From assembly GCA_017474925.1 (NCBI GenBank), contig JAFVGN010000060.1, positions 1 through 64,000 on the forward strand: a DNA stretch of 64,000 nt. The letters run 5' to 3'. Below the pieces are notes generated by a model. That model was not told the DNA's origin, searched no databases, and saw nothing but the letters and a program-made list of their open reading frames with translations. Origin of the DNA: Prevotella sp. Its GTDB lineage: Bacteria > Bacteroidota > Bacteroidia > Bacteroidales > Bacteroidaceae. The position numbers were made by a program, and so were the translations under genes. Shown one piece after another: positions 40,308-60,780 of this stretch; positions within the stretch are counted from its first letter, which is position 1, and every line of letters starts with the position of its first letter.

Positions 40308-41516
40308 TTAATTCTTCATGGTCGAAGTGCCATCAACAAGAGCTTGTAACATACGCCATAAAGATCCTTTCTCCTTATGGGTCCAAAGACCCAGTCTGCA
40401 GGCTGCATGCCAAAATGGAGTCCCTTGCGGTTTACCATCCTCGCCTAAAGGACCGCTGTGTTGCTGCCATCTCATTAGCTTATAGAAGCCAAAAGTCACC
40501 ATGACACCCAAAAACACCACCACACACACCTGAATAGTGTTTGATACCCCACACTGCCACATCATAAGCCAAACTACCATGACTGCGAGGTTGAGTGACA
40601 GAATGAACAATGCCGCCCCAAGGTGTGAGAATCCCATGTCGATAAACAGGTGGTGCAGATGCGTCTTATCAGGTTTAAACGGCGAGCAGCCCCTTACTAT
40701 CCTCGCTGTCATTACCCGTAGTGTGTCAAAGATTGGAATACAAAGGATGGCCAATGCCAACGCTATTGGACTTGCTCCCGCAGCCTCCAACCTGGCACCT
40801 GTATTCGACGAAAGCACTCCAAACTCAAAGATAGTCATCATAAAGCCCAGCATCATGGTCCCACCATCGCCTATAAACATCTTCGATTTCCGTCCAAAGA
40901 CATTGTGCATAAAGAAAGGAAGCAGTGCCGAAGCCGTAATCACAGCCAGACACGACCATACTGAGCGGTCAAGTGCTATGAAGATGGCAGCAAAACTGAC
41001 ATTGGCCATCATCCCATAGCCTGATGAATACCCGTCAACACCGTCAATCATGTTGATGGCGTTGATGGTGCCCACACCAGCCACTAATGACAGCGGTATG
41101 GCCAGCCACGGGCTTATATCCTGAAGACCGAAAAATCCGTAGAAGCTGTTGATGAAGTGGCCTGTGAAAACCATATAGAAACCGACGATTCCGAACTGTA
41201 TGATGAGTCTCAATATGGCCGACAGGTTTTTCATATCATCCCACACACCGAGCATCAGCATGATTGTCAACGCCATGATGCTCCATCTTATGCTGGCTCC
41301 GCTGACGAGTAATGACATGCCAAGACATCCTGCAAGAATACCGGCATACACTGCTACACCTCCCATGGTGGGAATGGGTTTGCGATGTAGCTTGCGTATA
41401 TCGGGATTGTCAACGACATGATGGCTAAGTGCATAGCGCAAGATGAAAGGGTAGCACACTACAGTCGCTGTCATCGACACCAACGCCAAGATGATGATTA
41501 TTTGTAAGGTATTCAT
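40308..41516 (-). CDS. WecA/MraY-type polyprenyl-phosphate sugar-1-phosphate transferase
   Basis: This 402-residue integral membrane enzyme of the glycosyltransferase-4 (UDP-GlcNAc to undecaprenyl phosphate) family would load the first sugar of the capsule repeat onto the lipid carrier. Its motifs are present: LHRKPIPTMGG, the Asp pair in LGVWDDMKNL, NAINMIDGVDG and PDKTHLHHLF. About ten membrane helices are visible. It is the last gene of the operon. Its start overlaps the stop of the preceding glycosyltransferase gene (TAATG). Confidence 0.9.
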   Translation of the reverse strand: MNTLQIIIILALVSMTATVVCYPFILRYALSHHVVDNPDIRKLHRKPIPTMGGVAVYAGILAGCLGMSLLVSGASIRWSIMALTIMLMLGVWDDMKNLSAILRLIIQFGIVGFYMVFTGHFINSFYGFFGLQDISPWLAIPLSLVAGVGTINAINMIDGVDGYSSGYGMMANVSFAAIFIALDRSVWSCLAVITASALLPFFMHNVFGRKSKMFIGDGGTMMLGFMMTIFEFGVLSSNTGARLEAAGASPIALALAILCIPIFDTLRVMTARIVRGCSPFKPDKTHLHHLFIDMGFSHLGAALFILSLNLAVMVVWLMMWQCGVSNTIQVCVVVFLGVMVTFGFYKLMRWQQHSGPLGEDGKPQGTPFWHAACRLGLWTHKEKGSLWRMLQALVDGTSTMKN

Positions 41517-42643
41517 TAATTCCTCAGTTCGTTGTAAATCCGAAGATGCTTCTCGATGACTTTCTCAATAGCAAATTCGCGTTCAGCCTTTGTGCGTGAA
41601 GCCCTTCCCATTCGCTTACGCAGGTCCCCGTCTTCCAACAAGACTCTTATCTTTTCTGCCAGAGCCTCGCTATCCCTTGCAGGAACCAGAAATCCGTTCA
41701 CGTTGTCATCCACCGCATCCTTACAGCCGATGGAGTTCGTGGTGACAATAGGTCTGCCTACGGCACAGGCATCGATCAGCGATTTGGGCAAGCCTTCACG
41801 GTAGTAGCTCGGGAATGCCATGATGTGACATTGTTCCAATATCGACTTGATGTCCTTCTGAAAATCCAGCCATTTGATATATTTTCCATCACAGCGTCGT
41901 TCAAGTTCCTCATGCGGCACGGCATCGGCATTCACAGCCAGGCGACCGCAGAGCCAGAACTCCACTCGCCCTTCGTACTCCTTACGCAGACTTTCGGCAG
42001 CTTCTATCACCTCTATCACGCCCTTCTCTTTGACCATTCTGGCGGAAAATACCACCTTCAGCGTCTCACTTTCCGGCTCTGGCACATACTTGAATTCATT
42101 CAGATTTACGCCAGAACCCTTTATGAACTCTGCCTGATCTTCTGTGACGACTCCATGTCGTAGGAACAGGTTTCTGTCCTCCTGATTCTGGAATATCACC
42201 TTTACCCTTTTTCTCCTGTTAGCAAACTTCATCATTGCCAAGATTCCTTTTGCCGTCATTCCCATTTTGTCACCAGAGAAGATAGCACCCAGTCCGCTCA
42301 CGGCATTCAACACGCCTCGGACTCCTGTCAGCTTGGCAGCAAGGCCTCCCCACAGGATGTTCTTCAGACCCACGTGATGAACTACGGCATCCCTATTCTT
42401 TATATATAAGGTGAAGAGGAACCACCAAGTCCTCAACTCCTGCAGGAGGTTCATGCCCGTGGGATTGATGGGTAACTCCAGCACCTTCAGCCCCAAAGCC
42501 TTCACTTCCTGCCAACGCCCCGTGTCCTTGCACACCACGGTTACATCCCACCCGGCCTTCTGTGCAGCCAAGGCTATCTCCTTCCTGTGTGACAGGAAGA
42601 AGCGGTCCTCATTGACAATTATAAATAGTTTCATGTTTTTCAA
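41516..42643 (-). CDS. Glycosyltransferase family 4 (GT-B fold)
   Basis: This 375-residue cytosolic glycosyltransferase has the N-terminal acceptor domain start (LFIIVNEDRFFLSHRKEIALAA). The C-terminal nucleotide-sugar domain has the E-x7-E motif in EGLPKSLIDACAVGRPIV (about residues 280-300). The sugar cannot be read. It begins within a two-unit heptad repeat overlapping the stop of the gene before it and ends in a TAATG overlap with the next. Confidence 0.88.
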   Translation of the reverse strand: MKNMKLFIIVNEDRFFLSHRKEIALAAQKAGWDVTVVCKDTGRWQEVKALGLKVLELPINPTGMNLLQELRTWWFLFTLYIKNRDAVVHHVGLKNILWGGLAAKLTGVRGVLNAVSGLGAIFSGDKMGMTAKGILAMMKFANRRKRVKVIFQNQEDRNLFLRHGVVTEDQAEFIKGSGVNLNEFKYVPEPESETLKVVFSARMVKEKGVIEVIEAAESLRKEYEGRVEFWLCGRLAVNADAVPHEELERRCDGKYIKWLDFQKDIKSILEQCHIMAFPSYYREGLPKSLIDACAVGRPIVTTNSIGCKDAVDDNVNGFLVPARDSEALAEKIRVLLEDGDLRKRMGRASRTKAEREFAIEKVIEKHLRIYNELRN

Positions 42644-42653
42644 TTTTCAATTT
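42640..42653 (-). repeat. Two-unit heptad repeat at a gene junction
   Basis: On the minus strand AAATTGA occurs twice in a row, overlapping the stop of the acetyltransferase gene and the ATG region of the next glycosyltransferase. Confidence 0.5.
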
Positions 42654-43218
42654 CCTTCACTACTCGGGCCGGTACGCCAGTGGCTATCGTCCAGGCCGGT
42701 ACATCCTTGGTGACGAGGGCACAACTGCCAATCACAGCCCCTTCACCGATATGCACACCGGGCAATATCGTCACATTGATACCGATGTAGCAACCTCTTG
42801 CCAAATGAATTCCGTCATATTGTATTGGCTGTTCTGTAGCCCTCATTCCTTTTTTGTAATTCTTCATGTCCCGTTTGTGGCACAACAGAGTTACACCGTT
42901 TGCGATGAGCACATTGTCTTCTACGGTGATTCTTTCCGCATTGCCGAAGTCAAGCCTCACCTGATGGCCAATCTGAACATTCTTACCCACTTTACAGCCC
43001 AATCCTCTCCAGATGGCAGGCCTCAAGTTTTTCTTATATAGAAACTCAAAAATATATGCTTTGAAAGCAAAGTTGAAGATAAAGCGTCGCCACAGTGTGC
43101 TAAACGCGAAAGCTATCAAGGAAAAGGGATTGATTCTGCCGTGTTTCTCCTCATCATTAATCAGATGGAGTTTATTAAGTAAACGAAATGTCAGTGTGGT
43201 CTTTTGCGTATTACTCAT
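42640..43218 (-). CDS. Hexapeptide-repeat O-acetyltransferase (LbH family)
   Basis: This 192-residue protein has left-handed beta-helix hexapeptides from about residue 85 (VGKNVQIGHQVRLDFG, GCYIGINVTILPGVHIGEGAVIGS) and the VTKDVPAWTIATGVPARVV end of the maltose/colanic-type acetyltransferases. It probably acetylates the capsule repeat unit with acetyl-CoA. Its start overlaps the end of the preceding glycosyltransferase gene by eight bases. Confidence 0.88.
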   Translation of the reverse strand: MSNTQKTTLTFRLLNKLHLINDEEKHGRINPFSLIAFAFSTLWRRFIFNFAFKAYIFEFLYKKNLRPAIWRGLGCKVGKNVQIGHQVRLDFGNAERITVEDNVLIANGVTLLCHKRDMKNYKKGMRATEQPIQYDGIHLARGCYIGINVTILPGVHIGEGAVIGSCALVTKDVPAWTIATGVPARVVKEIEN

Positions 43219-44344
43219 TGCTTAAATATAGTTTTAAAGTCTCTTTTGCATTATTCTCCCAAGAGAACTTAGCCAACTGGCTTTCAAGTTTTTGTTTTTT
43301 CTCTTGAATGGCGGCTTCGTTGTTCAGCGCTGCGGCAATCACCTTGCTCATGTCGTCCACATCGTAGGGGTCAAAATAGAACGCACAGTCGCCGCATACC
43401 TCAGGAACCGACGACACATTTCCAACAGCAGAGACCGTACCAAGACTGGCTGCCTCTAAAGGCGGGAAGCCGAAGCCCTCATAATAAGATGGATAGACGA
43501 ACAAGGTAGCATGATAGGAGAGCCACTGCATCATCTCCGTCGGAACATAATTCAAATATACCACATCGGGTGTTTCGGCAATAGCCTTCAGAACAGGTTT
43601 AGCATTTAATTTCTGATGTCCGGCCAATACCAGACGCACATCATCGAACCCACCTTGTGCCTTCATGGCCGAAAAGGCTTTGATGAGGCGTAAATGGTTT
43701 TTGCGGGGCTCTATCTGACTTAAACAGAACAGAAATCGGCCTTCCTTCAGGTAAGCATATTCTTTTGGAAACTCGTAATTCTTAATTCTATCAACAGAGA
43801 AGGACGAGCGGTTGATAGCCTCATGGATAACGGTCACCTTGTCAGGGGAGACACCGCAAGTGTCAATCATCTCGTCTTTCGTGAACTGTGAGATGGCTAT
43901 AATGCGGTCAACCCTGGCTATCGACTCCTTCACGGCATGTTTCAGGAACTGATACCTGAGGAAAGAGTAAGTCTTCGGATAGCGGTAGAGGCGCAAGTCA
44001 TGAACCGTCATCAACAGCCTGGCATGTTTCATCTTAGGGGCATGGAAGAAGGGTGAGTGGAATACGTCGAATTGCTCAATTTCTTCCTCCTTGCTCCAGA
44101 AACGTTGGGCAAACAGGCTACGGAATATTTTCGACACCAGACTCCTGTGATAGGGAATCGGCTTCAATTTAAACCTGGCAGGAAGGACGGTCTTGCAATA
44201 CTCAAACTGGTCTTCTAAGACGTAGAGCACATAGTCGTTGTCGTGATCCACCTTCGCCAGATGGTTGGTCAACTGGATGATATACTCTTTGATGCCGCCG
44301 CCACCCTTAGCAAAGCAGAATTGGCAGTTGATTGCTATTTTCAT
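43211..44344 (-). CDS. Glycosyltransferase family 4 (GT-B fold)
   Basis: This 377-residue protein begins MKIAINCQFCFAKGGGGIKEYI, the usual glycine-rich acceptor-domain start. The C-terminal domain has the YEGFGFPPLEAASLGT motif (about residues 285-300) with the two catalytic glutamates. SQIEPRKNHLRLIKAF lies between the domains. It is one of only two classical glycosyltransferases in the operon, with the initiating transferase last. Confidence 0.9.
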   Translation of the reverse strand: MKIAINCQFCFAKGGGGIKEYIIQLTNHLAKVDHDNDYVLYVLEDQFEYCKTVLPARFKLKPIPYHRSLVSKIFRSLFAQRFWSKEEEIEQFDVFHSPFFHAPKMKHARLLMTVHDLRLYRYPKTYSFLRYQFLKHAVKESIARVDRIIAISQFTKDEMIDTCGVSPDKVTVIHEAINRSSFSVDRIKNYEFPKEYAYLKEGRFLFCLSQIEPRKNHLRLIKAFSAMKAQGGFDDVRLVLAGHQKLNAKPVLKAIAETPDVVYLNYVPTEMMQWLSYHATLFVYPSYYEGFGFPPLEAASLGTVSAVGNVSSVPEVCGDCAFYFDPYDVDDMSKVIAAALNNEAAIQEKKQKLESQLAKFSWENNAKETLKLYLSNE

Positions 44345-44367
44345 GTTGTTTCTTTATTAAAGTTGAA

Positions 44368-45369
44368 TTACTTATTTGGAAATAAATACTTCTCAGTCAC
44401 TTTTTTCATAACTGAATGCAAAATGTATGATAAAATAAGGCAGAGAATAAATGCCCCTAATACTAACATCCCGCTGTCTTTAATAAAATGACTTAAAAGG
44501 AATTGAGGCCTACGATGTCCGTGAATTAAATAAAATTCCAAACTGATGGTACCAACGAATGCAAGAAATACTTCAATATACCGAATATATTTAAAAGATA
44601 AAATGAAACTTAATATACCAATAATAATGGGTAATAATGGAGCAGCTTGAATGACATCAGGTACCTTCCAAAAGAAAGAAAAGACAAATATGTAAATGAA
44701 AAGAGTGATGCAGGTAATCAGGAAAAGATGATGTTTGTTCTGTTCTAAATCCTTAAAGAAGAGAATACCTAATAGAAATACAGGAATACGAATAATTGAT
44801 ATAGAGAGATAAGGCAGGAATCCGCTTCCTTTATACAACAAAATAAGAGGAATAGATAAAAGAATCATCAACAACACTTGATTCCTCGATAATCTATAAA
44901 CTACGGGAATCAGCAAATAAAAGAACAAAAGCGTAGGAATATACCATTCATAAGAACATGTATTGAAAAAATACCCTAATCCTGTATACCAATAAAACAT
45001 ATCAACGGCAGAATGGGGATAGTCAAAATTGTCAAATTTACCCCCCACGAATATGCCAATCAGATGTATCAAGAATAATACTACCCACCAAGTTGGTACG
45101 ATTCTTTTAAACCGGTTAAAATAGAATCTCTTGATGGTATTTTTCTTTAAAGAGAAACATAGACCAAATGCTGACAAAAACAAAAATATATCAACACCCA
45201 GATTGAAATACTTAAATAAATCCCCCCAAAAGCCAGTTGGCATAAAGCCGAGTTTTTCAGATCGTGCGTGATACAAAAACACCAAAATCATAGAAAAGCC
45301 CATTAATGCGGACCTGTATTTCCCGATATGGTCAAATAGCTCTTTTGTTAATATTGCAGCTGTCTTCAT
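44368..45369 (-). CDS. Acyltransferase family 3 membrane protein (OatA-like)
   Basis: This 333-residue protein has about ten membrane segments. It carries the early Arg/His region typical of acyltransferase 3 (FLYHARSEKLGF, RFKRIVPTWW), which moves acyl groups across the membrane onto sugars. It is more distant from the two neighbouring acyltransferases than they are from each other. It is visibly A/T-rich compared with the flanking glycosyltransferase genes. Confidence 0.82.
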   Translation of the reverse strand: MKTAAILTKELFDHIGKYRSALMGFSMILVFLYHARSEKLGFMPTGFWGDLFKYFNLGVDIFLFLSAFGLCFSLKKNTIKRFYFNRFKRIVPTWWVVLFLIHLIGIFVGGKFDNFDYPHSAVDMFYWYTGLGYFFNTCSYEWYIPTLLFFYLLIPVVYRLSRNQVLLMILLSIPLILLYKGSGFLPYLSISIIRIPVFLLGILFFKDLEQNKHHLFLITCITLFIYIFVFSFFWKVPDVIQAAPLLPIIIGILSFILSFKYIRYIEVFLAFVGTISLEFYLIHGHRRPQFLLSHFIKDSGMLVLGAFILCLILSYILHSVMKKVTEKYLFPNK

Positions 45370-45379
45370 ATTCCATTTT

Positions 45380-46366
45380 CTATTTTTTACCCAAAACGTA
45401 AAGTCTGATGTACTTGCTATTGGATAGGAATTTTATGAATATCAGGCAAAGCCCTGTTATCGCTACCGTATAGAGCATTGATACAAGGTGAACTGTCGGC
45501 ATATTGAGCCCATCGAACCATTCTGGCCGGGGCTGGAATTGAGGCAGGAAGAAATAATCTATCAAGTAGATGGCTAATGAGTTCTGCCCAATTAAGTTAA
45601 TCAGCGAGTTGAACTTTGTCTGAGTCTGAAAACTATTCTCATGACAGACAAAGAACGAGACAATGGCAAAGGTGGCGAAGTATCGCAGGGCGACATCGCG
45701 TAGGAAATGATGGAGCACTGACGGCATGTCGTAAGTCAACAGAAAAAGCACAATAAAGTAAAATATCAGGAATGTTGCCTTAAACACCTCGTTGTGCATC
45801 AGTGATTCATATTTTGGACGGAATTTCATCGCCAGTGTTCCTAAGACAAAGAATTGGAAGAACTTGGTCACCCGTCGCAGGTCGAAGATTGCTGGTCCGA
45901 AGTCCTTGTCGATAGCCAACATTCCGATGCCCGCTACTGAAAGAGCCAACAGCACGCCAATTCTCCATTTCTCGTTCTTGATGACCAGTGTAATCAGATA
46001 ATAAACAAGGAAACATTCAAACAAAACAATTGTAAACCAATAGCCATGCATACCTCCTGTAATAAAACTGAAGAGACTTTTTTGATTCATCAGATCCGTT
46101 GCGACACGGAACACCAGTGCGGGGATGACGAGGAATACAAATTTTTTACGGATGTTGACCCAAGCATCTTTGATGCTCATGCTTTGCTTATAAGCCAAGA
46201 AACCGCTTACAAAGAAGAACAAAGGCATCACGGGTGCATACATCATCTGTGATGCTAAGTTCTCGTATGGTTTGAATCCGTTTACGGCCATTATATGAAG
46301 GTCTATGACCAGCAGTATAGCCAGACATTTCAGAGCATCAAGATAAGCGATTCTTTTCTTTTCCAT
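45380..46366 (-). CDS. Acyltransferase family 3 membrane protein, copy A
   Basis: This 328-residue, ten-helix protein starts MEKKRIAYLDALKCLAILLV and has the catalytic-type His in VIDLHIMAVNG. It shares most residues, including FFFVSGFLAY, KNEKWRIGVLL and FGPAIFDLRR, with the next protein encoded at 46378. The conserved C-terminal YLIH of the family reads YLID here. It probably O-acylates the capsule repeat. The 11-base spacing shows co-transcription. Confidence 0.82.
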   Translation of the reverse strand: MEKKRIAYLDALKCLAILLVIDLHIMAVNGFKPYENLASQMMYAPVMPLFFFVSGFLAYKQSMSIKDAWVNIRKKFVFLVIPALVFRVATDLMNQKSLFSFITGGMHGYWFTIVLFECFLVYYLITLVIKNEKWRIGVLLALSVAGIGMLAIDKDFGPAIFDLRRVTKFFQFFVLGTLAMKFRPKYESLMHNEVFKATFLIFYFIVLFLLTYDMPSVLHHFLRDVALRYFATFAIVSFFVCHENSFQTQTKFNSLINLIGQNSLAIYLIDYFFLPQFQPRPEWFDGLNMPTVHLVSMLYTVAITGLCLIFIKFLSNSKYIRLYVLGKK

Positions 46367-46377
46367 TTCTAACTTTT

Positions 46378-47367
46378 TTATTTGTGCCCTAAAGCATATT
46401 TCCTAATGTATTTGCTATTAGAAAGAAACTTAATGAATACCAAGCATAAACCAGTTATTGCTATGGTATAGAGTATTGATACAAGGTGAACGGTCACCAT
46501 GTTAAGCCCAGCAAACCACTCAGGCAATGGACGGAAATGAGGCAGGAAGAAATAATGAATTAAGTAGATTGCCAATGAGTTCTGTCCTATGTGGTTAATG
46601 ATAGAGTTAACTTTTGATTCCTGCTGAAAATAGTCAGCATGACAGGCAAAGAATGATATAACTGCAAAAGTTCCCCAATAGCGTAATACCACATCTCGCA
46701 TGAAGTGATATAATGCTACAGGGTTAATGTCATAACTTGTGAGAAACAACACAATGAAAAATAAAAGTAACACAGTAGCCTTTATAATTTCGTTATTTAT
46801 CAACAACTCATATTTGGGTCTAAATTTCATGGCCAATGTTCCCAACACAAAGAACTGGAAATATTTGGTAAGCCGTCGAAGATCGAAAATCGCTGGCCCG
46901 AAGTCCTTGTCAATAGCAAGAATTCCGATACCCGCCATCGAAAGGCTCAATAGCACGCAAATTCTCCACTTCTCGTTCTTGATGGCTAGTGTAATCAGAT
47001 AGTAAACAAGAAAACATTCAAACAGAACCACTGTGAACCAATAATCACTCATACCGTCGGTCAAGAAATGGAGTGGGGCATAGTGCTTCATAAGGTCCAT
47101 ACAAAGTCGGAACACGACAGCAGGAATAACAAGAAACACGAATTTCTTGCGTATGTTGCTAAATACCTCCTTGACACTCATGCTTACACGGTAAGCCAAA
47201 AAACCGCTTACAAAGAAAAAGATAGGTAAGGCAAATGAATAAATCATAAGTGCTGATAGTGAACCGTAAGGCTTAAAGCCATTGCCACTTCTCACGTGCC
47301 AATCTATTACCATCAAAATTCCCAGACATTTCAGAGCATCAAGGTATGCAATTCTTTTCTTCTCCAT
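46378..47367 (-). CDS. Acyltransferase family 3 membrane protein, copy B
   Basis: This 329-residue protein is the tandem paralogue of the gene at 45380, almost the same length. The catalytic-type His is in VIDWHVRSGNG, and the C-terminal YLIHYFF is intact. A duplication with divergence is clear from the matching start, middle and end. A three-unit heptad array precedes its ATG. Confidence 0.82.
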   Translation of the reverse strand: MEKKRIAYLDALKCLGILMVIDWHVRSGNGFKPYGSLSALMIYSFALPIFFFVSGFLAYRVSMSVKEVFSNIRKKFVFLVIPAVVFRLCMDLMKHYAPLHFLTDGMSDYWFTVVLFECFLVYYLITLAIKNEKWRICVLLSLSMAGIGILAIDKDFGPAIFDLRRLTKYFQFFVLGTLAMKFRPKYELLINNEIIKATVLLLFFIVLFLTSYDINPVALYHFMRDVVLRYWGTFAVISFFACHADYFQQESKVNSIINHIGQNSLAIYLIHYFFLPHFRPLPEWFAGLNMVTVHLVSILYTIAITGLCLVFIKFLSNSKYIRKYALGHK

Positions 47368-47388
47368 TAATTCTCAATTGTCAATTAT
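47368..47388 (-). repeat. Heptad tandem repeat before the copy-B acyltransferase
   Basis: On the minus strand the units ATAATTG, ACAATTG and AGAATTA run from the stop of the Stealth gene to the ATG at 47367. Confidence 0.7.
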
Positions 47389-48395
47389 CATTTTTCAAAT
47401 GAAGATTTCTCTGGCAATATGGCATCGAATGCCGCGTTTATCTGAGCCACCAATGCTTTAAAATCAGATACATTATCCGAATCTGCTGTAACTAGGATGT
47501 CGCATTTCTGCGATTTGATGGCAGCCGAGAGCTTTTCTACGCTGTCATCTGATATGGTATATCTGCACGTCCCCTTGGCGATATTAGTCGGATGGAACTT
47601 TCCAGACATCAGCTGCCAGAAACGGAACATATACTGGTTGACGTCGGTGATGTCGCGGAAACGATGGCTTGACACTTCGCGGAGCAAGGGCTCTTCGACC
47701 TCCCATACTTCACGGATGGTGCTCTTCAGGAAGGCCTGCGGCATGTGGTGGTTTCTGAATCCTGGGAACACCGAGAAAGGCAGCAGAGCTACGGTGCGCA
47801 AAAGTTGTGAACCATAGATGGGATTTAGCCATTTCATGGGATTGGCTTTCAGCACTGCATTTTTCCTGAAATGGCTGTTCACTACGTTCACATCGTTCAT
47901 CAGCATGTGTCCTCGAGGACCGCCCATCGGCAATGTGTCGAGTACTGCCATGTCGCAGGGCAGACCATTACGGAAGAAACGTTCAGGACGGACAGGGCGA
48001 AGTATGAAATAGTCGTCATTGAAATAAATGAACTGCTCTGCCAGTCCCTCTACGCGGTGAAGGTTCAACTCTATCGGCCGTACGCTGAACGTGGGCAGGA
48101 ACTCCTTCGGGATGAAGTCTTCATGGCGGACGAAGTTTAGCTTTGGGGCATACATGTTCAGCCACTTCGGCTTCTGGCCTGTAGTGATAAGATGTACCTT
48201 GCGCACCCATGGCGCGAATTTCTCTATGCCCCGGAACAGATACTGCATATTGTCCCAGTCACGGTAACGTATCTCCGTGTTGTTGTCGCGCCCCATCTCT
48301 ATGGCAGCATATTTCTTATATGCTTGCTGCCATTCCGGGTCGCTGCCATCTACCCAGGGAATGACGATGTCTATGTCGTGTTCCTTGTCTTTCAT
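47388..48395 (-). CDS. Stealth-family sugar-1-phosphate transferase
   Basis: This 335-residue protein starts with the Stealth CR1 block (DIDIVIPWVDGSDPEWQQ, residues 6-23). It contains the CR2 block around FIYFNDDYFIL (about residues 122-132) and the later RFFRNG/H-rich CR3 region. Stealth proteins make phosphodiester links between sugars in capsules, for example of Neisseria. It implies that the polymer of this locus contains hexose-1-phosphate bridges. It fits the glycerol-phosphate genes TagD and TagF upstream. Confidence 0.88.
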   Translation of the reverse strand: MKDKEHDIDIVIPWVDGSDPEWQQAYKKYAAIEMGRDNNTEIRYRDWDNMQYLFRGIEKFAPWVRKVHLITTGQKPKWLNMYAPKLNFVRHEDFIPKEFLPTFSVRPIELNLHRVEGLAEQFIYFNDDYFILRPVRPERFFRNGLPCDMAVLDTLPMGGPRGHMLMNDVNVVNSHFRKNAVLKANPMKWLNPIYGSQLLRTVALLPFSVFPGFRNHHMPQAFLKSTIREVWEVEEPLLREVSSHRFRDITDVNQYMFRFWQLMSGKFHPTNIAKGTCRYTISDDSVEKLSAAIKSQKCDILVTADSDNVSDFKALVAQINAAFDAILPEKSSFEK

Positions 48396-48405
48396 TAAAG
48401 AACAG

Positions 48406-49338
48406 TTATTTGTAAATCACTTGATTGTTCTTTTCCGATAGGTTGCCAACCTTGCGTGAAAGAATCGGCTTTTCACCCTTGCGGGTCTCAATGAAACAAT
48501 CTTCTACTACTCCCTGTTCGCATCCGGCAAAGTGGATGGTATGCCTCGACTTGGCCATCACACGGCAGTTGCGTATCTCGACCTTACCGATGCGTGCATT
48601 GCCGAATCCTTTCTTTCCGATGACTGCCCTGAAACCTCCCTCGCAGCCAGTCACAGTGACATTCTTAATCAGCACGTTATCTACCGTACATCGTTTGTTA
48701 GGCTCGATATCAATGGCATATTGAGGATTAGTGCCACTGATGTTGGCGATTTTGCAATTGCTGACTATAACGCCATTGGCCTTCGTAATAGAAATCCCCT
48801 GCCTGCGACTTCCACGCAACAGACAATTGGATATCTGAGTTTTTCTACTATTGCCGCCAATATAGATGCAGTCGCCCCAACAGTCAGCAATGCTCAATCC
48901 ACTTATTGTCACATTGCTGGAACCGTGAAGACGGATACCCATGCCCCATTCGCCTTCACGGCCAGAATGTTTAGACTTATCCCCGATAATACTGCCCTTG
49001 CCATGAATCTTGACATTGCTGCCAACAACTCGAATCATATCATAACTTTTGAAACCATTAGGTGCCAATTGGAGGGTGCCGTCAATGACAAGTTCCGTGT
49101 TGTCGCCAACTATTAGGCAGGCTCCTTTTTCTTTTTTGACTCGGAGAAGATAGTTTCCTTCAGAGATGACAAACGTACCGTTCTTGATTTCACGCCCATC
49201 GAACATCGACACGTCACCATCAGAAATATAAAAGTTCTTTCCCTGAAGGTCTTGGTCATTGTTGATTCCCGTCACGTTTAAGAACAGACAGCAAAGTGAA
49301 AATATGAAAGTCGTCATCATCCAATTCTCAATCTCCAT
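48406..49338 (-). CDS. Exported parallel beta-helix protein
   Basis: This 310-residue protein has an N-terminal hydrophobic segment (MTTFIFSLCCLFLNVTG), so it is probably exported. From about residue 85 it is a right-handed parallel beta-helix (IHGKGSIIG, VTISGLSIADCWGDCIYIGG, VIVSNCKIANISG, VLIKNVTVTG), like polysaccharide lyases and pectate-lyase-type epimerases. No catalytic residues could be assigned. The ATG at 49338 follows the previous stop directly; ATGs six and seven codons in are possible. It may trim or modify the polymer. Confidence 0.75.
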   Translation of the reverse strand: MEIENWMMTTFIFSLCCLFLNVTGINNDQDLQGKNFYISDGDVSMFDGREIKNGTFVISEGNYLLRVKKEKGACLIVGDNTELVIDGTLQLAPNGFKSYDMIRVVGSNVKIHGKGSIIGDKSKHSGREGEWGMGIRLHGSSNVTISGLSIADCWGDCIYIGGNSRKTQISNCLLRGSRRQGISITKANGVIVSNCKIANISGTNPQYAIDIEPNKRCTVDNVLIKNVTVTGCEGGFRAVIGKKGFGNARIGKVEIRNCRVMAKSRHTIHFAGCEQGVVEDCFIETRKGEKPILSRKVGNLSEKNNQVIYK

Positions 49339-50448: not shown

Positions 50449-50474
50449 TTCTTATACTTTGGCGTTTTAACTTA

Positions 50475-51374: not shown

Positions 51375-51381
51375 CCTTATT

Positions 51382-52542: not shown

Positions 52543-52545
52543 GCT

Positions 52546-52974
52546 TCAATCTATAATCTTTTTGTTTTCCATTTCCCGCAGGAGCGAGGAACTTACGCCA
52601 TTGGTGTGTTGCAGATAGACCACCTCGGCTCCTAATGGCTGCAGGTCTCGCTCCGTCTGTAGCCAACGCTCGTTACCCTTCCAGTCGCTGCCGATGAATA
52701 CGGCATCAAAATGCAGCTGCTGCCATGCATCGGTCTTGCTCAGCGTGTCGCATAGCACCACCTTGTCTACACACCGCATTTCACCAATAATAGCAGCACG
52801 GTCATGCTCATTGACTACAGGCTTCTTGTGCTTGTATTCGTTTACCAGCTGGTCGGTATTCACTCCGACAATCAGGCTGTCACACAACTCGCTTGCCTGA
52901 TGGAGGAGGTTCAGGTGTCCGATGTGGAACATATCAAATGTTCCCTGCGTATATCCTATCTTGTATTTTTTCAT
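52546..52974 (-). CDS. tagD: Glycerol-3-phosphate cytidylyltransferase
   Basis: This 142-residue nucleotidyltransferase has the YTQGTFDMFHIGHLNLL block with the HxGH motif, and WKGNERW plus GVSSSLLRE at the end. It makes CDP-glycerol from CTP and glycerol 3-phosphate, the donor for the adjacent TagF-like enzyme. The ATG overlaps the stop of a short acetyltransferase remnant. A broken second copy of its 5' end lies at 54260-54376. Confidence 0.93.
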   Translation of the reverse strand: MKKYKIGYTQGTFDMFHIGHLNLLHQASELCDSLIVGVNTDQLVNEYKHKKPVVNEHDRAAIIGEMRCVDKVVLCDTLSKTDAWQQLHFDAVFIGSDWKGNERWLQTERDLQPLGAEVVYLQHTNGVSSSLLREMENKKIID

Positions 52975-53096
52975 TTGGTCTGTTTATATTTGTCAGGTAT
53001 CTCCTCAGGCCGCTTAGGACGTACCAGATTCAAACCTTTTACCACGCTATGTGAGAGAACATCCTTGGTAACGAAGGCGCAGGCCTCGGTGTTCAT
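52971..53096 (-). pseudogene. Remnant of a hexapeptide acetyltransferase
   Basis: A 41-residue frame begins MNTEACAFVTKDVLSHSVV and ends PEEIPDKYKQTK. It resembles only the last turn and C-terminal hook of hexapeptide acetyltransferases; compare CALVTKDVPAW in the intact one at 42640. The beta-helix part is missing. Its stop overlaps the tagD start (ATGA), so it may still be translated and coupled to tagD. Confidence 0.55.
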
Positions 53097-53113
53097 TTTC
53101 TTTATTCACTATT

Positions 53114-53134
53114 TTACTTTAAACTTTGAACTTT
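53114..53134 (-). repeat. Heptad repeat at the 3' end of the sugar-transfer ATP-grasp gene
   Basis: On the minus strand three units (AAAGTTC, AAAGTTT, AAAGTAA) cover the last codons and the stop of the gene. This shows that the repeats can start inside coding sequence. Confidence 0.65.
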
Positions 53135-54258
53135 GCTTGCAACGCAACACTCTTGTTGCGACGGCAATAGTCTATCACTTCATCGGTATATTTACCAAAA
53201 ACTTCTTGGTTAGTGTACATATATGCGCTATAGCTGAATCCGTTAATATTATATTCTATGAGTACAGGTTTCCCATTTTCATTCAGTGCGATATCAAGAG
53301 CTATTAATCGATGATGATGAATGCTTGATCCTATGTATTTGGAGAATGAGATCACGTCATTCCAATGAGGAACGGTAAAGACATTCTTAGAATAATCAAT
53401 TCCATTCCAAGAGTCTTGTTTGTTTCCGTATTGATCAACAACATACTTTCCCAATTCGCCAGTTGCAACATCAATGCCAACACGCATCCCCCCAGCATGT
53501 ATGTTATCTACAAATGAGCCATCTTTTCCTATTCTGATTATACCAGCAGTAACTACGGATTCTTCGTTGGCAACTGAACGATAGAGGCAAAGCCGCATGG
53601 TATTTACAGACGTAGGACATAGCTTTTTCATAAAACTATGTTGGGTTATCATTTCTTGTAAGCAGAAATCTTTCTGATACGATAGCAGGAAGGCTTTTGA
53701 CAAAGTAATATCCCCCCTAACGGAAACGAAATCCTTACCTTTCTTTTCAAATTTCATGATACCTCTTCCAGAACTTGAATTGACAGAGGGCTTTAATATT
53801 AAACTTGTTGCGTTGCCAATATATTTTGAGAGGTCATCACTTGCATTCTTATATTCAGCATCAAGCAAATTGCTTCCATTAATCCTACAAACGATGGTAC
53901 GGGCGACATGCTCTTTCCCAACAATCTCTGGAAATAAATTTTTGTCCGAATAAGTCGGACGGTATTCTATCGGATTAAGAACGGGTTCAATGAAAGAACG
54001 GCCGATGTCTTCAGGAACGATATTCGGATTATTTCCACAAAAATGACTAAAGAATCGATAGGAATAGGGTTCGACACGAGGACATAGGACTTCCCATTTC
54101 TTCATGTAGAGATCCTCACCTATGGCTTTCTTGTTTTCGAAATGCTGTTGTTTCAGATAGCATTTATATTGATTTGAATAGCGTCGATATCTGCGATAGT
54201 GCCTTACAGAGACAAAGGCCCCCATGACACATGATTTTATACTTGAAATTATACTCAT
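53119..54258 (-). CDS. Sugar-transfer-associated ATP-grasp protein
   Basis: This 379-residue protein has ATP-grasp features of the capsule-associated family: SLILKPSVNSSSGRGIMKF, LCPTSVNTMRLCLYR, NIHAGGMRVGID and, near the end, RLIALDIALNENGKPVLIEYNINGF with the metal-binding Asp/Glu/Asn. These enzymes occur in polysaccharide clusters and probably ligate amino acids or similar groups to sugars. The gene lies exactly between the tagD fragment and the acetyltransferase remnant, which suggests it was inserted there. Confidence 0.82.
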   Translation of the reverse strand: MSIISSIKSCVMGAFVSVRHYRRYRRYSNQYKCYLKQQHFENKKAIGEDLYMKKWEVLCPRVEPYSYRFFSHFCGNNPNIVPEDIGRSFIEPVLNPIEYRPTYSDKNLFPEIVGKEHVARTIVCRINGSNLLDAEYKNASDDLSKYIGNATSLILKPSVNSSSGRGIMKFEKKGKDFVSVRGDITLSKAFLLSYQKDFCLQEMITQHSFMKKLCPTSVNTMRLCLYRSVANEESVVTAGIIRIGKDGSFVDNIHAGGMRVGIDVATGELGKYVVDQYGNKQDSWNGIDYSKNVFTVPHWNDVISFSKYIGSSIHHHRLIALDIALNENGKPVLIEYNINGFSYSAYMYTNQEVFGKYTDEVIDYCRRNKSVALQAKFKV

Positions 54259-54259
54259 C

Positions 54260-54376
54260 TTAACTTGTTGGTTGAATTGCGCTTGATTTTCTTGCCTGAT
54301 GGAGCAAGTTCAAGTGACCGATGTGTAACATATCGAAAATGCCTTACGTGGAGCCTATCTTATGCGTCTTCTTCAT
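54260..54376 (-). pseudogene. Broken 5' copy of tagD
   Basis: From the ATG at 54376 the frame reads MKKTHKIGST, then a TAA stop, then GIFDMLHIGHLNLLHQA, then unrelated residues to a second stop. The intact tagD starts MKKYKIGYTQGTFDMFHIGH with NLLHQA following. The copy thus covers only about the first 28 codons of tagD, with one nonsense change. It sits one base after the stop of the ATP-grasp gene at 54378 and one base before the start of the next gene. Confidence 0.85.
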
Positions 54377-54377
54377 A

Positions 54378-55571
54378 TTATTTTATGCGAAAACATTTTT
54401 TTACAAATGTCATGACTCTGCGTTTTAGTGTACTCAATTTTAATTGCGAATATGGCTTGTTGTCTGTATCATCCAAAATGAATGTAACATTAGCTTTCGC
54501 CAATTCTTCTGAAAATCGGCTAAAAGTCCATTGTCCAGCGAAAACCTTTGATAGTGCAGTTTTCTCATTTATAAAATGATATTGGGGGAATGAACGTTCA
54601 AATTCTGCCTTCGGATTTATTCCCAAAAGAGTGTTTATGAGGACTCCTGGCAGATTAATGATTGATTTAGTGATGGCATAGCCACTGGCTCCTAACCTGA
54701 GATTGAGTTCGTTGAAATAAATCGTCCCATTGCTGACGAATAAATCTATGTCGAAAAGTCCTGTTAGGTTTATCTTTTCCATAAATGCGGTCAACTTTTC
54801 TTCAAGTCCGGGATATGACGTTATGGAACAAACAGTTCCTGTGGCAGCAACCCCCAAGAAATGTTCCTTGATGCTTATTATACCAGGAATAATGGATTTC
54901 CCATCGACAGACACTCCAAGTACGGCAATCTCTTGATCTATATCGATGAGCTCCTCTATCAAGATGTCGTCTTTGGAAATCTCTGAAATTCTTTTCAGTT
55001 GAAGTGCTAACTCGCGCTCGTTGTTACATCTTGTCATCAAGCGTTTTAGGGCTCTTTTGAAACTTTCCTTGGGCTTTATGAAACAAGGATAAGAAATGCC
55101 ATCGGGAATTATATAATTCGCCTCATCGCAATGAGCCACCCAGCCATCAGCAACTCTAAGCCCCGCGTCTTTTGCTGTTTGCTTGACCCGATACTTGTTC
55201 ATCATGCTTACCAGCTCTCCTTGTCTTCTCGACACATTGGGCATCATGAAATTTTGCGTTAGCTCGTCAAGATGCAGGTCAATCACAGAAGCAGTATAGT
55301 CATCGGTTGGTAGAAGTATCCTCTTTTCTCCAACATTTTCTAAACTTTTGATAATATTAACCAACTTTGCATGGTCAGGCTCTTTTGCTATGAATGTTTT
55401 CAAAACATATTTGCTACTTGCGTCGATTCTACACTTAGTATTCCTTCCTGTCTGTATAACTATAACGTCACAGCCTGATTCAGCAGCTGCCCTTATCATA
55501 CCCAGTCGCGAGGCATAATTGCGCCCCATGACTATCGCTATGTGTTTGAGATTGTGCACTTTTGTCCTCAT
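54378..55571 (-). CDS. ATP-grasp ligase (carbamoyl-phosphate-synthase-like)
   Basis: This 397-residue protein has a Rossmann-like N domain (IAIVMGRNYASRLGMIRAA) and the ATP-grasp body: YPCFIKPKESF, ILIEELIDIDQEIAVLG, FDIDLFVSNGTIYFNELNLRLGASG with the terminal acidic metal ligands. Such enzymes join a carboxylate to an amine using ATP. It is the third ATP-grasp type in the operon and the first in transcript order. A GNAT gene precedes it. Confidence 0.85.
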   Translation of the reverse strand: MRTKVHNLKHIAIVMGRNYASRLGMIRAAAESGCDVIVIQTGRNTKCRIDASSKYVLKTFIAKEPDHAKLVNIIKSLENVGEKRILLPTDDYTASVIDLHLDELTQNFMMPNVSRRQGELVSMMNKYRVKQTAKDAGLRVADGWVAHCDEANYIIPDGISYPCFIKPKESFKRALKRLMTRCNNERELALQLKRISEISKDDILIEELIDIDQEIAVLGVSVDGKSIIPGIISIKEHFLGVAATGTVCSITSYPGLEEKLTAFMEKINLTGLFDIDLFVSNGTIYFNELNLRLGASGYAITKSIINLPGVLINTLLGINPKAEFERSFPQYHFINEKTALSKVFAGQWTFSRFSEELAKANVTFILDDTDNKPYSQLKLSTLKRRVMTFVKKCFRIK

Positions 55572-55592
55572 TTGAAAGATTAAGACAAGATT

Positions 55593-56198
55593 TCAGATAC
55601 CAAACCTTTTCACATGTCCAGGTTTGTATCTGAGTTTTTTATACCATTTACGAATCAGAAACTGACATTTGATATACCAGTTAGAATAAGGGCAGCCATT
55701 CAACCATTTTACCATCATAACATCATAATGGTCAGTAGAGGTTACTTTTAAATCAACAAATTTATATCCTGCTTTTTTTGCGATATCAAGTCTATGTTTA
55801 TTGTTCTCATGAGTTTCGCCGAGCATTCTTGTCAACTGCATAGATAAAGCAAGCTCTTCTCTCTTAAGATCTAAGGCTTTATAAATACCTTTACCATTGT
55901 ACTCTGGAAGGACTGAAGCAAAACAGCAATAAGCATAGTCACCCTTTCCGCACCAAAGACGACCCGCTTTTACAATTATTGCTGCTGTTCCTACGATTTT
56001 CTGCCCATCCATGGCAACAAGCATCTTTCCGTGTCCCTCAATTTTTTTCCTTATTTTCTCCCCCGGAAGTGCAGGGAATGCCATATTCATTCCTTTCTGA
56101 CGGTTCTGCTCATGTGCTTTCCATAGCACATTGTGAATCTCATCCCATGATACCCAGTCGGGCTTTTCTATGATTATTATACTTGCATCGTTTTTCAT
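55593..56198 (-). CDS. GNAT-family N-acyltransferase
   Basis: This 201-residue protein shows the GNAT core: KMLVAMDGQKIVGTAAIIV, then VLPEYNGKGIYKALDLKREE with the acyl-CoA-binding G-K-G turn, and NKHRLDIAKKAGYKFVDLKV. It probably acetylates an amine on a nucleotide sugar or amino-acid substituent for the polymer. It lies between the flippase and the ATP-grasp gene. Confidence 0.82.
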   Translation of the reverse strand: MKNDASIIIIEKPDWVSWDEIHNVLWKAHEQNRQKGMNMAFPALPGEKIRKKIEGHGKMLVAMDGQKIVGTAAIIVKAGRLWCGKGDYAYCCFASVLPEYNGKGIYKALDLKREELALSMQLTRMLGETHENNKHRLDIAKKAGYKFVDLKVTSTDHYDVMMVKWLNGCPYSNWYIKCQFLIRKWYKKLRYKPGHVKRFGI

Positions 56199-56220
56199 TA
56201 TTACCTACGAATGTTTAAAC

Positions 56221-57702
56221 TTATATACCAAGACGTTTAACCCTTCCCCCTTTTTTATGATAGATGGACACAACTATCTCTTTTATGTTTACGTAACTTT
56301 CCGGCTTGAAGACAAAAGACCAAATCAAATAAACAGAAACAAAGCAGACAAATTTTAGGATTCCATCCAAATACAATGACAAGTTAGCATACATGCCAAC
56401 AAAATAGGTAACTGTAAATATAACTAATGAAACGATTAGAATTGGGAAGATATCTGCCAATTGTCTTGTCCACGTGTATCCGATATATTTGGAAACTAAA
56501 CAGATATTCACAAAATACGAAAACCATGTCGTGAAAACCAGACAGATAAGCAGTCCCTTCATTCCATAGAAATAGATGCTGCAAAACAACAGAGTGATAC
56601 CAACCATACGTTTAAAAACTGTCCATTTAAACATCACCTTACTCTTCCCTATTGCGGCAATAGAATGGTTGTTAACCCCTTGTAGACAATATGCCAGACC
56701 GGACAGACACAAAAACTGGAAATAAGGGACACTATCAATCCATCTTTCAGAGTATAATAATACGAATAAAGGTTTTGCACATAGTAAAAGGATAAACATC
56801 AGCGGAAAGGTGATATACGAAAGAGAGATGGTTAACTTTCGAATAGTATCCGATAGACGAGACTTGTCATCTTGCAACTCTGCATATAGGGGATAAGTTA
56901 CCTGTGTTAGCACCTGAGAAATACTTAAAGAGGCCAATCTTTCCGTACTCTGGGCTCTTGAATAGTATCCCATTGTGGCAGGATTATAGAATTTACCGAT
57001 CAAAAGCCCCTGAATCTGTCGGCCAAACTGATTCAACATATGTGTCAGAAACATGTAGAACCCAAAACTGAAAAGTTCCCTAAGTGACTGCCATGAGAAA
57101 ACTAACTGGGGACGCCACTTGACATAGAACCAGAATGCAATGGCAGGAATGGCTGCAGTCAGGATGTGTTGAGCCACCAAAGCCCACACACCAAAGCCTT
57201 GATATGCCATCACGATGGTGACAGTCAGTGCAGTGACCGATGTAAAAATAGTTACAACGGAAAGCGTCTTGAAGTTCATCTTCTTCCGCAACTGATTGCG
57301 CTGGACAATGTTAAAAGCATAGATAAACAGGATGACTCCCTGCACCCGCAAAACATCACTAAGCAAAGGAATATCATAGAACCGTGCAATGGCAGGAGCT
57401 GAGAAATACAGAATGACATACAATAACACTGCCATTCCAAGATTCCAAAAGAATATCGTGGAATAATCTTCCTGTGTGGGACGCTTCTTCTGTATCAATG
57501 CTGAGCCGAAGCCACCGTCGATGAACGCCTCTGCCAAGACCATGAAGATCATCAACATGCCTATGCAACCATAATCATATGGAGTCAACAAACGGGCAAG
57601 AATTATACCAGAAATGAATTGGATGAACATCGTAGAGTATTTCTGCAATGCTGTCCATATCATCCCCGATACTGTCTTCTGTTTGAGATTCTTATTTGAC
57701 AT
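56221..57702 (-). CDS. wzx: Polysaccharide flippase of the MOP family (Wzx-like)
   Basis: This 493-residue protein has about 14 hydrophobic helices. The opening SNKNLKQKTVSGMIWTALQKY and GIILARLLTPYDYGCIGMLM are typical of flippases that carry lipid-linked repeats across the inner membrane. The start codon lies inside the last codons of the DUF4886 gene. The first 35 bases of this gene recur at the start of that gene. Confidence 0.9.
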   Translation of the reverse strand: MSNKNLKQKTVSGMIWTALQKYSTMFIQFISGIILARLLTPYDYGCIGMLMIFMVLAEAFIDGGFGSALIQKKRPTQEDYSTIFFWNLGMAVLLYVILYFSAPAIARFYDIPLLSDVLRVQGVILFIYAFNIVQRNQLRKKMNFKTLSVVTIFTSVTALTVTIVMAYQGFGVWALVAQHILTAAIPAIAFWFYVKWRPQLVFSWQSLRELFSFGFYMFLTHMLNQFGRQIQGLLIGKFYNPATMGYYSRAQSTERLASLSISQVLTQVTYPLYAELQDDKSRLSDTIRKLTISLSYITFPLMFILLLCAKPLFVLLYSERWIDSVPYFQFLCLSGLAYCLQGVNNHSIAAIGKSKVMFKWTVFKRMVGITLLFCSIYFYGMKGLLICLVFTTWFSYFVNICLVSKYIGYTWTRQLADIFPILIVSLVIFTVTYFVGMYANLSLYLDGILKFVCFVSVYLIWSFVFKPESYVNIKEIVVSIYHKKGGRVKRLGI

Positions 57703-58813
57703 TAGCTATAACTTTCTTGGTCTTACCATCACTCATACGAATCATGTTCAATCCTTTCTGAGGATGGCCTATTCTACGCCCTTGCATATCATAGACAATA
57801 GTTCTTGGCGAATCATTGACTGCACCATATACAATAGAAGTGTAATCTTCAGGATTCTGGCATTGATACATATTCTGTGTTGCCAAATAAGCAGCCTCTT
57901 GAGCTATGAGGGCATTTTCATCAGTTACATTCACTGATGGATACTTCGAGTCTTTATCAGATACATCTATACGAGCGGAATTGCCAACTACCGATATACC
58001 ACAACGCGGTGCAATGAGCGATTCATAATAGCTGCAGGCAGCCGTATATTCTGCCAGTCCATATCCGCAATGTGTCCCATCTCGTGTCAAATCATATTCA
58101 TTGTTGAGCGAACTCGACCTTAAATTCTGAATGGCAGTTCCGTATGGAATTACGAAATCTACACCATAATCTTCACAAAAGGACTTGGTAGAATTGGCTA
58201 TCAACTGCCATCGGTCATAAGAAGATTTCTCCGTGTTTTTCTCATACCCGCTCCAATAACTATGTACAAGGAGGAAACCAAGCTTTGCGTTCGGTTGATG
58301 CTCCTTGATGATAGAGATCAACTCATCCAAATAACCAGCTGCACTATTGGTGTTCCATGTTGAATAATAGGGTGCATACAAACTATACTGATGGATAATG
58401 ATTAAATCCCAAGTCTCGTTGGTCAACAAATCTCTGAATAACTTGCCATCTCCAGCTTCTCCTTCACCTGTTTGTACATTGGCTGACAGCCTACCTACGA
58501 CCTTTGTAATAGAATAGATTTTAGAGTCCTTATCATTATAAATATCAACCCAGTTCTTGAAGGAGGCTCCCCCCCGAGAGCATTGATATAGACACATCGT
58601 ACTGAGGTCGGCCTTACTCGCCTTTGCAATGAGAGGCAGAAGATGGGTCGCTCCAGCTGTATAACTATTCCCTATATCAAGAACCCTCAGTTCCGCCTTC
58701 TTTAAGACAGCATTCTCTGCAGTTACTGGCAAACTTAAAAGGATGCTAGCTATAAAACAATAGAAACACCTCATAATAGATACCGCCTTCTGTTTTTTAT
58801 TCTTATTTGACAT
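57692..58813 (-). CDS. Exported DUF4886 (SGNH-like) protein
   Basis: This 373-residue protein has a signal peptide (RCFYCFIASILLSLPVTAENA). The N-terminal block LRVLDIGNSYTAGATHLLP holds the Ser of an SGNH-type hydrolase, and DLIIIHQYSLYAPYY and TRDGTHCGYGLAEY follow with the terminal Asp and His. It may remove acetyl or other ester groups from polysaccharide. It ends in a Prevotella-type tail (YDMQGRRIGHPQKGLNMI) which runs into the flippase start. The first 12 codons copy the flippase 5' end, so the original start may be the ATG at 58774. Confidence 0.8.
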   Translation of the reverse strand: MSNKNKKQKAVSIMRCFYCFIASILLSLPVTAENAVLKKAELRVLDIGNSYTAGATHLLPLIAKASKADLSTMCLYQCSRGGASFKNWVDIYNDKDSKIYSITKVVGRLSANVQTGEGEAGDGKLFRDLLTNETWDLIIIHQYSLYAPYYSTWNTNSAAGYLDELISIIKEHQPNAKLGFLLVHSYWSGYEKNTEKSSYDRWQLIANSTKSFCEDYGVDFVIPYGTAIQNLRSSSLNNEYDLTRDGTHCGYGLAEYTAACSYYESLIAPRCGISVVGNSARIDVSDKDSKYPSVNVTDENALIAQEAAYLATQNMYQCQNPEDYTSIVYGAVNDSPRTIVYDMQGRRIGHPQKGLNMIRMSDGKTKKVIANVK

Positions 58814-58841
58814 TACTTATAAACGTGATTTAAACATTATT

Positions 58842-59516
58842 TCATTGTTCTATCACTTGTATAAAAGCCGTTGGAATATAGGCCGTAGAAACAAGTCCGA
58901 CTTGGGACAATGTTAATACAACCCGCTGCTGGCCTGAAACCCGGGCAACCCTTCCTTCGACACCCTTGAATGCTCCATCTTTTATCCTCACTAACTCTCC
59001 GCCTTTGAAATGACATCGTGATTCATCAACGAACTTCAGATGTTCACTTTTGTTGCATGTGGCAATGATGAAATTCTCCATCTCCTTACAGGAGACAGTC
59101 AATGGGGGATTCTTCAGGGTTACGCTTTGTTCAAAATGATTGTAATAATAGGTAAGGTATGAGAGGGCTGGCGTGTTCTTCACATACTCATCTGCCTTGT
59201 CCTCGGTGGTATATACAAAAAGGAGGTTAGGGATAAGTGTCTCCAGAACCTTCTTTTGCTTGCCATTTACCGACTTGCGCGCATATCTTTTTGCTATATA
59301 GACAAACGTGCCATCTTCAACAATGTAATCAGCTGCCTTGTCTTCTCGTCCGTATGATGCCCGGAAAACATACCAGTTTTTATCTTTGTCATGTACATAT
59401 CTTACCGACACCCCTGTCTTTGAGCTCTTGGCTTCGGGGATGGTATCAGGGGTAAGCCTGACACATGGAGGATTAGCCTCGCCTCGTCGAGTTTCCACAT
59501 TAGACAATGTGCTCAT
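58842..59516 (-). CDS. upxY: UpxY-family transcription antiterminator (NusG-like)
   Basis: This protein has about 224 residues. A NusG N-terminal domain (KNWYVFRASYGREDKAADYI to LIPNLLFVYTTEDKADEYV) and a KOW-type C-terminal part (GGELVRIKDGAFKGVEGRVARV) match UpxY. UpxY loads on RNA polymerase at the 5' leader and allows transcription of the long capsule operon. It is the first gene of the minus-strand transcript, as usual. The ATG at 59516 is chosen; a GTG at 59570 would add 18 residues. No UpxZ-type partner was seen. Confidence 0.88.
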   Translation of the reverse strand: MSTLSNVETRRGEANPPCVRLTPDTIPEAKSSKTGVSVRYVHDKDKNWYVFRASYGREDKAADYIVEDGTFVYIAKRYARKSVNGKQKKVLETLIPNLLFVYTTEDKADEYVKNTPALSYLTYYYNHFEQSVTLKNPPLTVSCKEMENFIIATCNKSEHLKFVDESRCHFKGGELVRIKDGAFKGVEGRVARVSGQQRVVLTLSQVGLVSTAYIPTAFIQVIEQ

Positions 59517-59626
59517 ATCGGACCATCTCGCGTTTTGGTCGACGCTCGGCTCGATGCTTGATGTAAACACTTATTGTACACATCCGACGTTTGTACCCAA
59601 AGGCTCACATCTTCGAGAATCGGCTG

Positions 59627-59634
59627 CAAAAGTA
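59627..59634 (-). promoter_or_regulatory. Promoter -7 box of the capsule operon (TACTTTTG)
   Basis: On the minus strand TACTTTTG lies about 57 bases before the GTG and 111 bases before the ATG of upxY. A T-run stands just upstream, but no clear TTG at -33. No inverted repeats of the invertible-promoter kind were seen around it. Confidence 0.55.
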
Positions 59635-60774: not shown

Positions 60775-60780
60775 ACGTAC

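Follow-up and report, generated by a model that had tools for sequence, protein, structure and literature searches.

A Prevotella capsule locus that appears to combine a teichoic-type unit with an exchanged amide-forming cassette

INTRODUCTION

What kind of polymer would a Gram-negative bacterium build from a capsule locus in which teichoic-acid-type enzymes lie next to three different ATP-grasp proteins? This question is raised by a stretch of 64,000 nucleotides from a Prevotella sp. genome (GenBank assembly GCA_017474925.1, contig JAFVGN010000060.1, positions 1 to 64,000), referred to here as the window, in which positions 40308-59570 on the minus strand form a single polysaccharide locus of 19 co-directional genes, UpxY-headed and of Wzx/Wzy type. 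From first to last, the genes are upxY, DUF4886, wzx, a GNAT acyltransferase gene, two ATP-grasp genes (agCPS and agST), tagD, tagF, tupA, an EpsG-type polymerase gene, a beta-helix protein gene, a Stealth gene, three Acyl_transf_3 genes, gt4b, a hexapeptide transferase gene, gt4a, and a WecA-type starter gene. The best overall explanation, which we hold with moderate confidence, is a UpxY-first Wzx/Wzy capsule operon of a rumen-type bacterium that specifies a teichoic-type unit and has acquired its amide cassette by exchange; we infer the chemistry of all steps. Family calls are Pfam matches above curated cut-offs, with NCBIfam used for UpxY, TagD, and TagF, and the host genome (G000) is 63.65% complete.

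RESULTS AND DISCUSSION

A side-group cassette in place of an acyltransferase

A scan with a four-sequence TagF alignment yielded 80 loci, and the same backbone as in the window was found in eight sister loci of other Bacteroidales genomes (L091-L096, L098, and L099). Red deer or goat reticulum appears in the record titles of three sisters; four others bear the prefix RUG, which we take to mean rumen uncultured genomes, and the title of L093 (UBA2939) gives no source. L097 was not counted as a sister, its TagF being 50% identical and its neighbors different. In L094, identity to the window proteins is 92% for gt4b and stealth, 90% for tagD, 85% for acyl3a (the first Acyl_transf_3 protein), 84% for gt4a, 71% for wzx, 68% for tagF, and 59% for the polymerase. 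Across the sisters, gt4a is 74 to 84% identical over the aligned part in seven of eight (only 97 and 127 residues being aligned in L092 and L098), gt4b is 74 to 92% identical in six of eight, and TupA was found in four of eight, with a CapA-like gene (PF09587) lying between tagF and tupA in L093 and L096.

The gap between wzx (56221-57702; PF13440, 311 bits) and tagD sets the window apart. All seven sisters in which this gap could be read, that of L093 being masked, hold a hexapeptide acyltransferase of about 182 amino acids there, alongside other open frames in L096; PF00132 was tested for and found in L094 and L099, and the remaining sisters were called by similarity. The window instead holds the GNAT acyltransferase (55593-56198; PF00583, 36 bits) and two ATP-grasps, namely, agCPS, of the carboxylate-amine ligase type (54378-55571; PF02222, 34 bits against a cut-off of 27), and agST, an ATPgrasp_ST protein (53119-54258; PF14397, 129 bits). 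None of the three was met in the eight sister stretches, and none of the seven readable gaps holds a GNAT or ATP-grasp gene.

Two scars accompany this cassette. The 113 nt before tagD (52972-53084) are a 3' remnant of the hexapeptide acyltransferase, identical to L094 at 98 of 113 positions (score 83, against at most 17 in 300 shuffles). Between agCPS and agST lies a broken, ungapped 71-base copy of the tagD 5' end with an in-frame stop (54291-54361; score 43, whereas 500 shuffles reached no more than 19), which was also picked up by PF01467 in a genome search. The cassette thus adjoins the remains of the acyltransferase gene that the sisters keep there, and the side-group genes of this lineage were changed by recombination. 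Because the sisters hold an acyltransferase at this place and the window retains the scars, two of the locus's three ATP-grasps (agCPS and agST), together with the GNAT, form a swapped-in decoration cassette rather than part of the core. A possible source type is seen in the distant locus L081, which has the order wzx-gnat-agCPS-tagD-tagF, its GNAT, ATP-grasp, CTP_transf_like, and Glyphos_transf families being confirmed by Pfam. In the simplest history, for which we infer the order of events, an L081-type gnat-agCPS-tagD stretch would have entered beside wzx, leaving behind the broken tagD and the old acyltransferase tail, with agST arriving later or together with it.

The same scars could mark a decaying hybrid in which recombination left the cassette unused and no amide is made, and the truncated acyltransferase and broken tagD copy within the cassette fit that view, as do gaps of 144 and 119 nt on either side of agST in a locus where the other 16 of 18 intergenic gaps are below 30 nt. 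We nevertheless regard decay as improbable: all 19 ORFs (open reading frames) are open, no cassette ORF is short relative to its relatives, the ATP-grasp residues E288, N290, and R292 are retained, and agST is 60% identical to a homologue at G083:C511.

A separate trace of recombination lies upstream of wzx. The DUF4886 gene (57692-58813; PF16227, 95 bits) begins, at 58779-58822, with 44 bases that nearly copy the start of wzx at 57668-57711 (score 30, against at most 18 in shuffles), and DUF4886 had no match in the examined stretches of the eight sister loci. Given both observations, recombination looks to have placed the gene between upxY and wzx.

The teichoic-type pair

The backbone into which the cassette was set includes a TagF-like protein of 386 amino acids (51382-52542) that matches PF04464 (Glyphos_transf) with 217.6 bits against a cut-off of 22.1, from profile position 4 to 366 of 367. 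The match spans residues 18-381, and the protein carries no second Pfam family and no fused glycosyltransferase domain. Its best PDB sequence match is Staphylococcus epidermidis TagF (3l7i; E 1.3e-29, 106 bits), with whose H444 and H584 the window residues H120 and H254, invariant across four orthologues, align; these are the catalytic histidines of the S. epidermidis enzyme, according to PMC5974469. Scores stay below the NCBIfam equivalog cut-offs for TarF (173 of 550 bits), TarB (72.6 of 500), and TarL (70.3 of 1000). With both histidines conserved, the original prediction of a teichoic-type alditol-phosphate transferase within a Gram-negative capsule locus is supported.

For the TagD-like nucleotidyltransferase (52546-52974; PF01467, CTP_transf_like, 77 bits), the label of a teichoic-acid-type enzyme holds only in part. 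The HxGH nucleotide motif is present as HIGH and is invariant in six sequences, and the best near-full-length PDB matches are the glycerol-3-phosphate cytidylyltransferases of Staphylococcus aureus and Bacillus subtilis (63 and 57 bits). Weighing against a glycerol assignment, the protein has HTNGVSSS at the place of the RTEGIS found in the B. subtilis and S. aureus TagD enzymes, and it falls below the cut-offs of both NCBIfam models concerned, with 72.5 of 165.4 bits for glycerol-3-phosphate cytidylyltransferase and 88 of 181.5 bits for the heptose-1-phosphate adenylyltransferase domain.

To place this variant, we drew on sets of stretches fetched around anchor genes. The tagF set comprises 60 stretches and stems from 66 matched places (E no higher than 1e-36), of which the window itself, its twin contig G311:C20, and G201:C313 were left out and three others fall within stretches already fetched. 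The agCPS set holds 20 stretches from the better matches of the agCPS search, the agST set another 20 (agST was matched in 41 of 399 genomes, and places fetched earlier were left out), and the control set 40, being rows 3 to 42 by score among the wzx matches and a non-random draw. Stretches reach at most about 10 kb on each side of the anchor, with many ending at contig ends, and absences are lower bounds. Some loci belong to two sets: by contig, L058 is L099, L059 is L098, and L061 is L092, while L031 overlaps L249 and L069 overlaps L228. L199 and L200 are near-identical judging by scores.

In the fetched loci, tagF adjoins 26 of 39 TagD-like proteins (100 to 260 amino acids, longer fused ORFs excluded and four loci counted twice). 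At the position of the classical R, these 26 have H in 15 cases, Y in six, and R in one, while four lack the motif. Because the tagF-adjoining proteins mostly carry H or Y rather than R, the window TagD belongs to a TagF-linked variant group. CDP-glycerol is our best guess for its product, and we predict glycerol as likely rather than established because this TagD is an outlying member of its family.

The pair might instead add a non-glycerol alcohol phosphate (e.g., ribitol or ethanolamine), giving a capsule without glycerol, a reading that gains from the higher TagD score for heptose-1-phosphate adenylyltransferase than for glycerol-3-phosphate cytidylyltransferase, from the H/Y-type motif of its group in place of RTEGISTT, and from the top PDB match by total score, an ethanolamine-phosphate cytidylyltransferase with 78 bits over two domains. 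The best single-stretch PDB matches are nonetheless the two glycerol-3-phosphate enzymes, TagF is nearest to glycerol-phosphate transferases (3l7i, 106 bits, versus 58 for the ribitol-phosphate polymerase TarL; NCBIfam, TarF 173 versus TarL 70), and no gene for another alditol was seen among the Pfam matches in the locus. We therefore consider a capsule free of glycerol unlikely, though by no means as improbable as decay of the cassette.

Among other tagF-bearing stretches, the clostridial locus L112 (Clostridiales metagenome-assembled genome [MAG] SIG349, 7552-14501) brings TupA, a Wzx-like protein, and TagF together with a 385-amino-acid TagD-like ORF and a UDP-sugar-dehydrogenase relative. 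The clostridial MAG loci L100-L108, L110, L111, and L113-L115 have two or three tagF-like genes near one another, and tagD was not matched within these stretches.

Sugars and acyl groups of the repeat

The two classical glycosyltransferases and WecA-type starter that had been called from the sequence are present: gt4a (41516-42643; PF00534, 106 bits), gt4b (43211-44344; PF00534/PF13439), and the initiating sugar-phosphate transferase (40308-41516; PF00953, 98 bits). The expected Stealth sugar-phosphate transferase (47388-48395) was likewise confirmed, with PF11380, PF17101, and PF17102, which together stand for regions CR1 to CR3, above the cut-off and CR2 at 141 bits; the conserved regions of Stealth phosphotransferases include CR4, which was not among the matches at E 0.01.

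Several genes had been missing from the list behind the original prediction: the three Acyl_transf_3 membrane acyltransferases (PF01757) spanning 44368-47367 (44368-45369, 61 bits; 45380-46366, 79 bits; and 46378-47367, 96 bits), the hexapeptide-type acyltransferase (42640-43218; PF00132, 49 bits), the EpsG/Wzy-type polymerase (49339-50448; PF14897, 46 bits), a protein with a right-handed beta-helix and a hydrophobic, helical N-terminus (48406-49338; epimerase/lyase-like), Wzx, and DUF4886. The proposal of a short and mostly non-sugar repeat does not follow because the starter, the two GT4 enzymes, and Stealth can each place sugars. Judged from gene content, up to four sugars per repeat could be placed, compared with one alditol phosphate, and at least four acyltransferases are available.

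The operon's first gene encodes the UpxY-type antiterminator (58842-59570; NF033644, 124 bits against a cut-off of 100). An invertible promoter is typical of UpxY capsule operons, though not found at every locus, and it counts against our reading that no invertible-promoter repeats were found in 58700-60800, the sole inverted pair being 12 nt long with arms 529 nt apart. At the other end, two very large proteins adjoin the locus, one of 1288 amino acids (29865-33731) with no Pfam match at 1e-5 and one of 1370 (36087-40199) matching only CopC and the F5/8 type C domain.

Which amide?

TupA (50475-51374; PF14305, 199.5 bits), an ATP-grasp and likely amide ligase, has D260 and E272 invariant in five sequences. 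In Campylobacter, the C-terminal TupA-like domain of Cj1438 amidates glucuronate, joining it to serinol phosphate or ethanolamine phosphate (PMC11800397). All three ATP-grasp genes and the GNAT gene score above cut-off, and by analogy an amide-forming decoration of the polymer is probable; the addition of amino acids, also foreseen, is plausible.

Several observations pull the other way. The Pfam matches of the 19 genes include neither a uronic-acid dehydrogenase nor an aminotransferase nor any amino-acid gene, and the sole PF03721 match in the incomplete genome is on another contig. Further, agCPS is not enriched near tagF (2/60) or near agST (5/20 versus 7/40 controls; p 0.51, with relatedness ignored, as in all p-values here), and in L196 a GNAT relative occurs unaccompanied by agCPS. 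All three cassette genes, agST, GNAT, and agCPS, do occur together in L172, L173, and L174.

It is conceivable, if rather doubtful, that instead of adding amino acids the ATP-grasps couple small amino alcohols, of the serinol or ethanolamine type, or form a free amide. The Cj1438 substrates speak for this option; on the other side stand the absence of aminotransferases and decarboxylases from the families that the 19 genes matched, the presence of three distinct ATP-grasp families, which would make a single common amine less likely, and the pairing of agST-type genes with CapA-like genes, whose family (PF09587) is named after poly-gamma-glutamate capsule synthesis. Amidoligases are reportedly the subject of a study by Iyer et al. 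from 2009.

CapA-like genes were paired with ATPgrasp_ST in same-family capsule-type loci in 6 of the 20 agST loci and in none of the 40 controls; the loci named for this pairing are L172, L174, L195, L196, L197, L199, L200, and L207. No CapA gene was found in the window or in its incomplete genome. Elsewhere in that genome, contig G000:C52 (L184, 80000-99900; 78013) has the PF03721 sugar dehydrogenase and, nearby, two agCPS relatives accompanied by glycosyltransferase-like genes; this is probably another polysaccharide locus.

Proposed pathway and rarity

Under our preferred reading of the operon, the WecA-type enzyme would start the repeat on undecaprenyl phosphate. Sugars would be added by the two GT4 enzymes and, through a phosphodiester, by Stealth. 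The alditol phosphate would be activated by TagD, in all likelihood as CDP-glycerol, and the single-domain TagF would add one such unit. Decoration would be modular, with O-acyl groups from the hexapeptide and Acyl_transf_3 enzymes, an amide that TupA would form on a carboxyl-bearing residue, and a further, possibly N-acylated, amide group from the GNAT/ATP-grasp cassette. Wzx would then flip the repeat, EpsG/Wzy polymerize it, and the exported beta-helix protein trim or epimerize the polymer.

A bolder version, which we offer tentatively, is that each repeat joins teichoic-type glycerol phosphate to teichuronopeptide-type, amide-linked, N-acylated amino acids, and that the three ATP-grasps (TupA, ATPgrasp_ST, and agCPS) and GNAT, joined by CapA in relatives, constitute a mobile toolkit that replaces O-acyl genes and thereby alters surface charge and antigen.

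The combination was described as unusual, and within our sample it is: any two of the three ATP-grasp kinds were found together in 0 of 60 same-family TagF-anchored loci and 0 of 80 genome-contig loci, and all three in 0 of 220 fetched loci. That it could define a new capsule chemistry was overstated, given that agST, agCPS, and GNAT are side-group genes where seven of seven readable sisters have an acyltransferase, and that teichoic-like capsules of Gram-negatives are already published (PMC5974469). Among the literature matches listed, no title links ATP-grasp ligases and TagF-type transfer within a capsule of Bacteroidales, which does not disprove that such a report exists. The readable scars show Bacteroidales exchanging one capsule side group while the backbone genes stay, and the associations point to a capsule ATP-grasp set, with ATPgrasp_ST beside CapA-like genes and agCPS beside GNAT.

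Comparison with known systems

The TagF-like capsule polymerases of Gram-negative pathogens (PMC5974469) resemble the window system in TagF-type phosphate transfer with two catalytic histidines. They are large proteins combining glycosyltransferase and TagF domains and make group 2 polymers, whereas the window has a single-domain TagF of 386 amino acids and separate glycosyltransferases in a Wzx/Wzy locus. The Campylobacter jejuni HS:2 capsule amide likewise involves a TupA-like ATP-grasp in a capsule locus; there, the domain is fused to a glycosyltransferase and the cluster includes amine-making genes (PMC11800397 and PMC11800379), whereas the window protein stands alone in a locus without amine genes.

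Closer to home, Bacteroides UpxY-type capsule loci have UpxY first, followed by Wzx, Wzy, and glycosyltransferases, with the starter enzyme last. The window shares this UpxY-first, starter-last layout but differs in its TagD/TagF pair, its GNAT/ATP-grasp cassette, and the lack of a visible invertible promoter. Finally, Gram-positives have the teichuronopeptide (TupA) and poly-gamma-glutamate (CapA) systems. The window has no CapA and shows no evidence of poly-glutamate, but it shares the TupA-like gene, and CapA-like genes are seen in two sisters, L093 and L096, as well as next to agST in other loci. Should the amide prove to be an amino acid, a Bacteroidales commensal would display capsule chemistry otherwise regarded as typical of Gram-positives.

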